Assembly: GCF_034259205.1 (NCBI RefSeq)
Contig: NZ_CP139487.1
Coordinates: 3,224,001-3,288,000 of the forward strand
Origin: Peredibacter starrii
GTDB lineage: Bacteria > Bdellovibrionota > Bacteriovoracia > Bacteriovoracales > Bacteriovoracaceae
Direction of reading: 5' to 3'
Length of the DNA: 64,000 nucleotides
Under the pieces are notes generated by a model, which was given only the letters and a program-made list of their open reading frames with translations, was not told the DNA's origin and did no database searches. Positions 6,466 to 10,206 of the stretch are shown piece after piece. The first letter of the stretch is position 1; each line of letters starts with the position of its first letter. The position numbers and the translations under genes are program-made.

Positions 6466-7404
6466 ATGATACATGCTCAGGGCAACCACTCAATCACTTA
6501 TGATTTTGACAAGGACATTCCTTGGAACCAAGGTTTGACCCTTTCTCAAACTCTTCTGCCAATTCCTGCGAATTGTTCCTTTATTAATGAGCTAACAAAA
6601 AATGAAAAGCACGCCGCTTCTTGGGTTCTCGGACTTCTAGCTGCAAGTGCCATTAAAGAACACGAAAAAGTTCTGAACCAAATGCGGACTATTTGTTTTG
6701 AGCGCGAACCAAAAGCAAAAAACAACCATGCATTCGCCATGGAGGGCAAACAGTTCTTCCTGGAAGAAGCTGTCCATTCTGCGGCCTTCTCTCGTTTTCT
6801 TGATATGACTGCCAAAGAATTAAACCTTTCAAGGGAAGAGCTATCCAGCTTCTTACCGTCTTTCGATAAGAAATCATTAGTGGCAAGACTTTACGCCTTC
6901 GAAGGCCTCTTAGGTGGCAAGGCCATCTGGTGGACAGTTGCTGCAACCGAAGAAGAAAGTATTCGTCTTTTTCAGCAAATGGCCCCTCATAAAAATCACA
7001 CAGACTCAGTCTTTTTTAGTCTCAATCGCCTTCATTTCCTTGAAGAATCAAGACACTCGTCATTTTCATATGAAATGCTCTCAATGCCTGAACAGTCTTG
7101 GCGTAGACCAATCACAAGACTAAGTTTCGCAGTTTCACGTATCCTGCAAACAATTTGGCTCATCGGAGAACTCAAGAGATTTCGTAAGGTCTCTCAATTT
7201 CAGGACCGTCACCCGATTTTAAAATCAATGAATCAGGTCGTAGAAAAGATCGATGTCCTTCCATTCAAATCTAAGTTGAAACTTATCTTCAATGAGATTT
7301 CTTATATCAAGATGATGACTCAACCTGAAAAGCATCCTCGTCTTAAAAAGACCCTCGCAAAAATTGGAGCATTTGTTCTTAAAACTCCGGGGATCAAATC
7401 ATGA
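6466..7404 (+). CDS. Ferritin-like di-iron protein (AurF-like / PF10118-like)
   Basis: This 312-aa, mostly helical protein keeps a complete set of carboxylate/His ligands in four-helix order: E65 or E67, E101-x-x-H104, E146, and H190 with E194-x-x-H197. The HFLEESRH block reproduces the His-x3-Glu-x2-His spacing of AurF-type N-oxygenases and resembles the WHxxEExEH block of PF10118 'predicted metal-dependent hydrolases'. It is likely an O2-activating di-iron enzyme; the substrate is unknown. It is first in an operon whose four genes overlap by 4 nt, next to a desaturase, so a lipid-linked substrate is plausible (inference). Confidence 0.78.
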   Translation: MIHAQGNHSITYDFDKDIPWNQGLTLSQTLLPIPANCSFINELTKNEKHAASWVLGLLAASAIKEHEKVLNQMRTICFEREPKAKNNHAFAMEGKQFFLEEAVHSAAFSRFLDMTAKELNLSREELSSFLPSFDKKSLVARLYAFEGLLGGKAIWWTVAATEEESIRLFQQMAPHKNHTDSVFFSLNRLHFLEESRHSSFSYEMLSMPEQSWRRPITRLSFAVSRILQTIWLIGELKRFRKVSQFQDRHPILKSMNQVVEKIDVLPFKSKLKLIFNEISYIKMMTQPEKHPRLKKTLAKIGAFVLKTPGIKS

Positions 7405-8156
7405 AAAAACCACTTTGTGTTTTCCTTCATGGCTATCCAAACAATCCGCTTCTTTGGAAAGAGCAGATTGAGAAGATGCAGGATCAATTTACGATCTTAA
7501 ATCTTGCTCTACCTGGCAGCACCAACGGCCTTGTTTCTCAATCTGAGTTGAAATTAGAAAAAATCGTTAGAAATATTGTGGCCGAGATTACTGCTCAAAA
7601 TAAAGATGAGATCATTCTCATTGGCCATGACGTTGGAAGCTTCATCCTTTCAGAAGTTTCTAAACATCTTTCAAATAAGGTCAAGGCCCAGGTCTTTATG
7701 GCCGGCATGGACTTCAAACTCTTCCGCAAGCGTCTTCTCTCATCAACTCAGTTCTTCAAATCTTGGTATGTATTTCTGCTTCAAATCCCGGGTCTCTCTG
7801 AGGCCTTCGTCGCTAAGTTTCGTCCTCTACTTTCGAAAAATGTCTACGACATGTCTCACATTGCAGAAAATGCATCACTAAGAACTGAAGCTCCTTTTGG
7901 CTTTACGCCGATTGGTCTTTATCGAGAGCTAAGAACGGGAATGTTTCTTTCAACGCCAAAGAAGTCTCAGGTTCCGACACTCCTTCTTTTTGGGAAAGAC
8001 GATAAATTTATCAAAGCACCAAACTCACAAGACATACGTCCCTTTTACTCTGAAGCTGAAGTAAAGGTTTTAGACGGTGGTCACTGGTTTTTAAGAGAAA
8101 ATCCGGAACTCGTAAATCAGACGATTCAGAATTTTCTTCAAAAGGCGGCCCTATGA
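7401..8156 (+). CDS. Alpha/beta hydrolase with Asp nucleophile elbow
   Basis: The 251-aa alpha/beta-hydrolase-fold protein has the oxyanion-hole motif FLHGYPNNPLLW near the N terminus and the nucleophile elbow GHDVGS. There an Asp replaces the usual Ser, as in epoxide hydrolases, haloalkane dehalogenases and OleB. The catalytic His lies in LDGGHWFLRENPE near the C terminus. It would hydrolyse a substrate through an aspartyl-ester intermediate. It starts within the stop of the di-iron gene (ATGA) and ends within the start of the desaturase (ATGA), so it is translationally coupled. Cytoplasmic; substrate unknown. Confidence 0.85.
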   Translation: MKKPLCVFLHGYPNNPLLWKEQIEKMQDQFTILNLALPGSTNGLVSQSELKLEKIVRNIVAEITAQNKDEIILIGHDVGSFILSEVSKHLSNKVKAQVFMAGMDFKLFRKRLLSSTQFFKSWYVFLLQIPGLSEAFVAKFRPLLSKNVYDMSHIAENASLRTEAPFGFTPIGLYRELRTGMFLSTPKKSQVPTLLLFGKDDKFIKAPNSQDIRPFYSEAEVKVLDGGHWFLRENPELVNQTIQNFLQKAAL

Positions 8157-8968
8157 AAATTACTTTCGCAAATTTTCGCAAAGACCCTTTTTTCTTCTTC
8201 AAGTATTTCACAGCTCAGATGCTAATCATGATGGTTCTTGGCTTCCTATGCAAAGACCTGGTTTCATCTGAACTGTCTTTGAACCTCAATCATCTCTTAG
8301 TTCTTCCACTTGCAGTGGTTTTTGGTCTTCAATTACCTGTGGCACTTCATAACGCCGTTCACTTTAATATTAAGCCGAGAATGCTCAATGAAATCGTGGG
8401 CGAAATCTGCGGCTTCTTCGTACTGTTTGGTATGGCCCCATTCAGAATCAGCCACGTCCTTCACCACGCGAATGCTGATGATCACGAGCTTGATCCACAT
8501 CCTCCAATGGGAAAGAACTTCTTGTACTTCCTTGCCACAACTCAACTGAATACAGTTCGCGTAATCAGTAACCAATACTTTAGTATCCACGGTCGCTCTG
8601 CAAAGACTTATTCAATTATGGGCACGCAGATGGCGGCCTACTATGTAGGTCTTGCTTTGCGGGCATTCATTTGGTGGAAGGTCTTGGGACCAACTTACTT
8701 CGTGGCCTTCTACTTACCGGCCTATTTAACAAACTTAGTGGTATTCGCTCACATCAACTGGGCAACACATAAGACAATGGAAGATGGCTCAGTTGAAATT
8801 GTGAACCTTAATCACAATCTTTACTATAAGACGGTAAACTTCCTAGGTGCCGGTGCTTACTATCATCTTAACCATCACTTAAAACCGAATCTTTATGATC
8901 CTTCTAAGTACGAGGCTCCGGTGGCGAAGAAGCCCAAGCTTTGTCTGGTTGAGGAGATCTCTGCCTGA
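8153..8968 (+). CDS. Fatty acid desaturase family membrane protein
   Basis: The 271-aa membrane di-iron protein has the three His boxes of the FA_desaturase family: HNAVH (about residue 66), HVLHHANADDH (about 103) and YHLNHHLKP (about 242), plus an extra HINWATH. There are about four to five hydrophobic segments. Members introduce double bonds or hydroxyl/keto groups into acyl chains or carotenoids using O2. It shares 4-nt overlaps with the hydrolase upstream and the flavin oxidoreductase downstream (CTGA). Carotenoid or lipid oxidation are both possible. Confidence 0.88.
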   Translation: MKITFANFRKDPFFFFKYFTAQMLIMMVLGFLCKDLVSSELSLNLNHLLVLPLAVVFGLQLPVALHNAVHFNIKPRMLNEIVGEICGFFVLFGMAPFRISHVLHHANADDHELDPHPPMGKNFLYFLATTQLNTVRVISNQYFSIHGRSAKTYSIMGTQMAAYYVGLALRAFIWWKVLGPTYFVAFYLPAYLTNLVVFAHINWATHKTMEDGSVEIVNLNHNLYYKTVNFLGAGAYYHLNHHLKPNLYDPSKYEAPVAKKPKLCLVEEISA

Positions 8969-10206
8969 TACCTTCATATGATTTTATCATCGTTGGTGCA
9001 GGACTCGCAGGGCTCACGGCCCATCATCGCCTAGTTCAAAACGGCTTCTCAGTTCTTCAAATTGAAAAAGACACGATCGTTGGTGGTCGAGTAAGAACTC
9101 TTAACCTTCAAGGAGCAAAGGCGGATGTCGGAGCTCAGTTCTTCACTCGTGGCTATCCTCTCATCTCCAATCTAGTAAAAGAACTAAAACTTGAAACCCA
9201 AGATAGCTGTGCGCTCATGGGTTTTATGATGAAAGAGAAGAATCTTGTCGTTAACACCAAGAATCCATTTTCATCGCTAACTCAAGGATTAGTTTCTCCG
9301 AGATCATTCCTGAAGCTCGCTCAGATTCTTGTCTATTTTAAATTAAAGCACCGAAAGCTTGCTCTGGAAGACATCACTGCGCTGGCAAAGTTTGATAACA
9401 TGAGTGCGGAAGACTTTTGTCTTAAATACTTAAATGACGAAATTCTTCGCAACTTCTTTGCTCCCTACTTCTCAGCTTTTAACTACGCCTTTGCTAATGA
9501 ACTATCGGCCTCCATGATGGTGCGAGCTCTCGCTCATATGGCAGAAGGGAAATCACTATTTGGTTTGAGTGAGGGGCTTGCAGGACTCCCTCTTACTTTG
9601 GCCCAAAACAAAAACATCATGACTGATACGGCCGTCCATCAGATAAAGGGTGAAGAAGTCACAACTGATAAAGGTGTGTTTAAAGGAAAGAAGATTATTG
9701 TTGCGACTACGGCCACTGTCGCAGAAAAGCTTCTGAAAGATAAGTTTCCAACGTCACTTAAGACCAAGTACTCTCCTTCGACCCATGAAGCGATACTTTG
9801 CAAAAAGAATATCAAGAAAGGTCCTTACGGTACTCTGGTGCTGCCGGAGAGAAATCCATTCATCAATGTCGTGACGAATGAAGCTCAAAAAAATACAAAG
9901 TTAGTCCCTGAAGGTTTAAAGCTCATCGGAGTACTAAGAAGCCGCGAAGGCCATTCACAAAATGACTTTTCGGATAAATGGCGTTTATTAGGAATTAAAG
10001 AAGCGGATGTTCTCGATTACCGTATCACCAAATGGGATGAAGCAATTCCTGTATGTGCTCCCGGTAGAGCAAAAGAAGTCCTCGCTTATCGAGAGTCGCT
10101 GAAAGCAACTGACCAACTATTTTTAGCAGGTGACTATCTCGGCACTCCCTGTGCAGAAGGTGCGGTGGAGTCTGGAACTTTTATCGCGAGTCTCTTTACG
10201 AGATAA
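8965..10206 (+). CDS. Flavin-dependent amine oxidase / desaturase-like oxidoreductase with CTG start
   Basis: The reading frame is open from 8953 onward, but the first ATG (9217) lies after the FAD motif. Codons from 8965 give a proper N terminus: YDFIIVGAGLAGLTAHHRL (Rossmann GxGxxG), then IVGGRVRT. The likely start is CTG at 8965, overlapping the desaturase stop as CTGA and placed 8 nt after GAGGAG. The resulting 413-aa protein ends with the usual flavin motif FLAGDYLGTPCAEGAVESG. Family: flavin amine oxidase / phytoene-desaturase / protoporphyrinogen-oxidase-like. It is last in the redox operon, and its 3' end overlaps a convergent hydrolase gene by 11 nt. Confidence 0.82.
   Translation: MIPSYDFIIVGAGLAGLTAHHRLVQNGFSVLQIEKDTIVGGRVRTLNLQGAKADVGAQFFTRGYPLISNLVKELKLETQDSCALMGFMMKEKNLVVNTKNPFSSLTQGLVSPRSFLKLAQILVYFKLKHRKLALEDITALAKFDNMSAEDFCLKYLNDEILRNFFAPYFSAFNYAFANELSASMMVRALAHMAEGKSLFGLSEGLAGLPLTLAQNKNIMTDTAVHQIKGEEVTTDKGVFKGKKIIVATTATVAEKLLKDKFPTSLKTKYSPSTHEAILCKKNIKKGPYGTLVLPERNPFINVVTNEAQKNTKLVPEGLKLIGVLRSREGHSQNDFSDKWRLLGIKEADVLDYRITKWDEAIPVCAPGRAKEVLAYRESLKATDQLFLAGDYLGTPCAEGAVESGTFIASLFTR

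Follow-up and report, generated by a model that had tools for sequence, protein, structure and literature searches.

A candidate CTG start codon at a desaturase-flavoenzyme gene junction in Peredibacter starrii

Where does translation of a flavoenzyme gene begin when its reading frame contains no canonical start codon upstream of the flavin-binding motif? The question is raised by a four-gene, same-strand operon at positions 6466-10206 of the window (the whole stretch of 64,000 nucleotides of the Peredibacter starrii genome that was analyzed). The predicted products, recognized from open reading frames and Pfam profiles, are an AurF-like di-iron oxygenase (6466..7404, + strand; Pfam AurF, E 3.7e-7), an alpha/beta hydrolase (7401..8156, + strand; Abhydrolase_1, 4e-12), a fatty-acid-desaturase-like membrane protein (8153..8968, + strand; FA_desaturase, 2.5e-18), with the stop codon TGA at 8966-8968, and a flavin amine-oxidase-like oxidoreductase of 413 codons plus stop (8965..10206, + strand; Amino_oxidase and NAD_binding_8), hereinafter the flavoenzyme. 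Standard gene finders admit only ATG, GTG and TTG as starts, so that the flavoenzyme gene would be annotated from position 9217, without the flavin-binding domain. The first-pass annotation proposed instead that the gene starts at a CTG within the end of the desaturase gene, by translational coupling.

Coding sequence upstream of the first canonical start

An in-frame TGA at 8950-8952 is followed directly by the open flavoenzyme frame, which extends from 8953 to the stop codon at 10204-10206; its codons from 8953 are GGA GAT CTC TGC CTG ATA CCT TCA TAT GAT TTT ATC ATC GTT GGT GCA GGA. The first ATG of this frame (9217..9219, + strand) was claimed to lie past the Rossmann motif, and this is indeed the case; it is also the first canonical codon of any kind, with no GTG or TTG before it, is located 84 codons after the CTG at 8965, and is not preceded by a Shine-Dalgarno (SD) sequence. 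The absence of start-type codons across this span is a ∼1% event under the codon usage. The near-cognate codons 5' of the motif are CTG 8965, ATA 8968, ATC 8986 and ATC 8989.

The N terminus of the flavoenzyme upstream of 9217 is genuinely coding, in agreement with the original claim that a normal FAD-binding N terminus is encoded there. The dinucleotide-binding motif, YDFIIVGAGLAGLT, occupies 8977..9018 (+ strand), and several FAD-domain profiles match the translation from the CTG starting with its residue 5 or 6 (Y5, D6), with DAO, FAD_binding_2, FAD_oxidored and GIDA all aligning from D6, so that the frame is correct back to 8977-8980. In the same translation, Amino_oxidase (PF01593) matches residues 14-405 with 91.5 bits, against a curated cut-off of 19.8 (E 9.3e-26), and NAD_binding_8 aligns with residues 9-74 over the entire profile, whereas the translation from 9217 matches no dinucleotide-binding profile and retains an Amino_oxidase match of 39.3 bits that begins at profile position 116. 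Both ends of the FAD site are present, with GAGLAG (residue 11) near the N terminus and GAVESG (residue 399) as the C-terminal FAD motif, and the codon-usage coding score for 8977-9216 is +9.3 in the flavoenzyme frame compared with -16.7 to -32.6 in the other five frames. Comparison with 18 similar flavoproteins shows that the canonical start closest to the motif is usually located between a few and about ten residues 5' of it; the CTG precedes the motif by 7 residues.

Such a gene is an isolated exception in this genome. The scored set consists of 667 genes in 864 kb, or 21% of the genome (the window and 40 sampled stretches of 20 kb), delineated with a simple and crude codon-usage gene caller that accepts canonical starts only and leaves frames shorter than 60 codons unscored, so that the start counts, 621 ATG, 28 GTG and 18 TTG, are approximate. 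The flavoenzyme is the only one of the 667 genes that loses a long coding-like N terminus to canonical starts: 79 coding-like codons precede its first canonical start, and the next largest loss is just 20 codons. No other CTGA start appeared in the 864 kb with a caller restricted to canonical starts; genes that end in CTGA are, by themselves, not rare (14 of the 133 TGA-ending genes).

The desaturase-flavoenzyme junction

The arrangement of the junction that was initially described is precisely the one found: the CTG at 8965..8967 (+ strand) overlaps the desaturase stop as CTGA (8965-8968), both preceding junctions of the operon are ATGA overlaps (7401-7404 and 8153-8156), and the putative SD sequence GAGGAG is located within the desaturase gene at 8951..8956 (+ strand), 8 nt 5' of the CTG. 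The predicted duplex of this site with the anti-SD sequence ACCUCCUUU has an energy of -8.6 kcal/mol, which is near the strongest tenth of the genes and is the strongest among the four genes of the operon; SD matches of such strength occur at 0.9% of uncoupled gene ends and at <1% of random positions.

The spacing distribution and the overlap counts favor the CTG over both the ATA at 8968 and an out-of-frame ATG at 8978. The usual distance between the SD and the start in this genome is 4-11 nt, so that the CTG, at 8 nt, is inside this range, the ATA, at 11, is at its edge, and ATG 8978, at 21, is outside; of the 42 genes that combine AGGAG with an ATG start, 6 have a spacing of 8, one has 11 and none has 21. 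Overlaps of the -4 type are the commonest in the genome sample, with 47 other cases (43 ATGA, 2 GTGA and 2 TTGA), and outnumber the second commonest, the -1 overlaps (20), by more than 2:1. In related operons, wherever a desaturase gene that ends in TGA is joined to another desaturase gene, the junction is ATGA. The predicted RNA folding around the junction is unremarkable (z -0.9) and accordingly provides no evidence for coupling.

From the open frame, the SD site, the overlap and the homology, we infer both initiation at the CTG and its coupling to the desaturase, and a coupled, low-efficiency CTG start at 8965 is probably the best explanation of this locus. Ribosomes that complete the desaturase at TGA 8966-8968 would restart at the overlapping CTG, positioned there by the strong GAGGAG that precedes the codon by 8 nt, through either termination-reinitiation or coupled initiation, with the initiator fMet-tRNA on the CTG. 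The product would be the full protein of 413 residues, M-IPSYDFIIVGAGLAGLT..., with the N-terminal peptide (M)IPSYDFIIVGAG, with a rate of synthesis that is low relative to that from an ATG start. Judging by its C1/A72 mismatch and the three G-C pairs of its anticodon stem, the initiator tRNA appears to be standard; hence, nothing predisposes the cell to CTG, and expression should be low. The out-of-frame ATG mentioned above opens an ORF of 18 codons (8978..9034, + strand), 9 nt after the desaturase stop; it may divert some of the restarting ribosomes or else be the trace of a missed base, as considered below.

Near-cognate initiation might have a precedent in the genus itself. In the infC genes that were compared (L142, at G000:C1:3032535-3033041, - strand, and L152-L171), the apparent start is an ATA that follows GGAGGTGGG, and nearly all infC genes examined in the genus share the conserved sequence GGAGGTGGGTT-ATA-AGC, with ATT instead in L168; a suitable ATG is lacking in the P. 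starrii infC and in nearly all of the others. The pattern appears consistent with autoregulation of IF3 via a near-cognate start and suggests that this lineage makes use of near-cognate codons combined with a strong SD. It is conceivable, if doubtful, that the CTG of the flavoenzyme is a selected throttle, that is, a desaturase-coupled and deliberately weak start that, under the control of IF3, would keep the flavoenzyme well below the desaturase, in a genus in which infC itself apparently starts with ATA.

Relatives and rival explanations

The flavoenzyme has no orthologue in the 368 genomes of the phylum, where the best matches show about 25-30% identity, and it scores below every NCBIfam cut-off. 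Searches of genome_contigs with the flavoenzyme and with a two-row desaturase alignment yielded no relative, a search of viral_contigs yielded none either, and plasmid records contain only matches of about 25% identity and no DNA match. Across the 368 genomes, genome_contigs and viral_contigs, no relative preserves the CTG junction, and there is no close homologue. Oxygenase-hydrolase-desaturase operons, in contrast, recur in the family. In the closest one, L071, the desaturase is 65-67% identical and both ATGA overlaps are kept, with no flavoenzyme gene after the desaturase.

Three side observations can be added. The AurF-like oxygenase and the alpha/beta hydrolase, often accompanied by one or two desaturases and often joined by ATGA overlaps, form a recurrent operon of the family (window 6466-8968 and L071-L090). 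An AurF-like gene at G058:C21:174826-175727 apparently falls into two parts that occupy different open frames, probably as the result of an assembly error or of a frameshift that made it a pseudogene, and a desaturase homologue at G032:C7:53432-54205 contains one in-frame TAG.

Given that no relative among the 368 genomes has this flavoenzyme gene at this place, both the loss of a start codon and a base-call error have to be considered as rivals of the coupled CTG start. Base 8965 is the third position of a desaturase alanine codon (GCN) in which any base is silent, so that the upstream gene does not explain the C, and a mutation from NTG to CTG would be free there. The flavoenzyme gene could then have lost its start recently and be silent or nearly so, and its absence from relatives, including the nearest operon, implies that it may be dispensable; lineage-specific weak starts have a precedent in the AUA of citZ in Staphylococcus aureus strains derived from NCTC 8325 (PMC13009471). 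Such a loss is unlikely, however, for a frame that is intact over 413 codons, shows ordinary codon usage and carries an FAD motif at each end, and with an unusually strong SD next to the CTG, some product would still be expected. A sequencing error, with ATG, GTG or TTG as the true codon, appears quite improbable: a single substitution would restore the ordinary ATGA overlap seen at the other junctions of the operon, but the genome is a single contig of 4.15 Mb, and an error at exactly base 8965 is improbable a priori. Another kind of error, the omission of one T from the run at 8982-8985, would conceal a start at ATG 8978 (M-IFIIVGAG), which, on inspection, one added T brings into frame; this possibility is judged very improbable considering the SD spacing of 21 and the destruction of the Y-D expected by the FAD profiles; 4 of 18 related flavoproteins have YD just before the motif.

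Another rival of the CTG is the ATA at 8968..8970 (+ strand), which would overlap the stop by one base (TGATA) and give the product M-PSYDFIIVGAG. The apparent ATA start of infC in the genus keeps this codon a live rival, -1 overlaps are the second commonest kind, and the AUA starts of S. aureus infC and ccpN have been seen by ribosome profiling (PMC13009471). Nevertheless, the preference of this genome for a spacing of 8 over 11 and for -4 over -1 overlaps makes initiation at the ATA improbable. Programmed -1 frameshifting in the desaturase gene, yielding a desaturase-flavoenzyme fusion, has in its favor the -1 phase of the flavoenzyme frame with respect to the desaturase and the SD-like site located just upstream; by inspection, there is no slippery heptamer between the in-frame stop at 8950-8952 and the desaturase stop (GAG GAG ATC TCT GCC TGA), and the probability of such a fusion is close to negligible. 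The proposal of a coupled CTG start, as originally formulated, stands as the best reading, a probable rather than proven one, argued from position, SD strength, spacing, overlap type and homology.

Comparison with known systems

CTG starts are very rare in general. Their complexes are unstable in vitro (PMC11497404; PMC5622118), ancestral AUG starts have switched to CUG in 2 of 61,358 cases (PMC5622118), and in the figures quoted in one source, CTG starts account for 0.024% of annotated genes and are about 10-fold weaker than TTG (PMC11983097). A good context is not always sufficient: the CUG of Caulobacter dnaA has an SD and gives a toeprint, yet is unused in vivo (PMC8443254).

Several groups of known genes each share part of the flavoenzyme features. 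As a protein, the flavoenzyme resembles the Amino_oxidase flavoproteins, such as protoporphyrinogen oxidase, HpnE and relatives of amine oxidases, in having both FAD-binding ends and a similar overall domain length, but is only about 25-30% identical to any sequence found. The junction has the features of NTGA termination-reinitiation pairs (PMC6728339, PMC12548453), namely, a same-strand four-base (-4) overlap of stop and start, here CTGA, and an intragenic SD, here GAGGAG; ordinary pairs of this type, however, start with ATG, GTG or TTG, whereas the flavoenzyme has a candidate CTG. Non-canonical starts that lower expression are known in sigR of Streptomyces (GTC, repressed by IF3; PMC5472188) and in infC (AUU/AUC/AUA, with the AUA start documented in S. 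aureus; PMC13009471), which differ from the flavoenzyme in the codons involved and in that their regulatory role has been demonstrated, whereas that of the flavoenzyme start is putative.

If the CTG start is confirmed, a chromosomal metabolic gene with the common -4 overlap would be added to the few natural CTG starts, and the junction makes it possible to test whether the ribosome discriminates less against CTG when it restarts at a stop codon. The closest parallel is the rep gene of RepFIB, in F-like plasmids, where N-terminal analysis together with mutation of the start codon proved a CTG start with a good GGAGG site, and the gene is commonly misannotated from a downstream canonical codon (PMC11983097). 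The flavoenzyme gene likewise has no canonical in-frame start that would give the full protein, a strong SD at a compatible spacing of 8 nt from the CTG, and a frame that would normally be annotated from a later canonical codon; the two differ in that the CTG of rep is proven, with no stop-codon overlap mentioned in the accessible part of that report (PMC11983097), and that of the flavoenzyme is a candidate identified from the sequence. Natural CTG starts are thus already on record, and the flavoenzyme is probably another such case.
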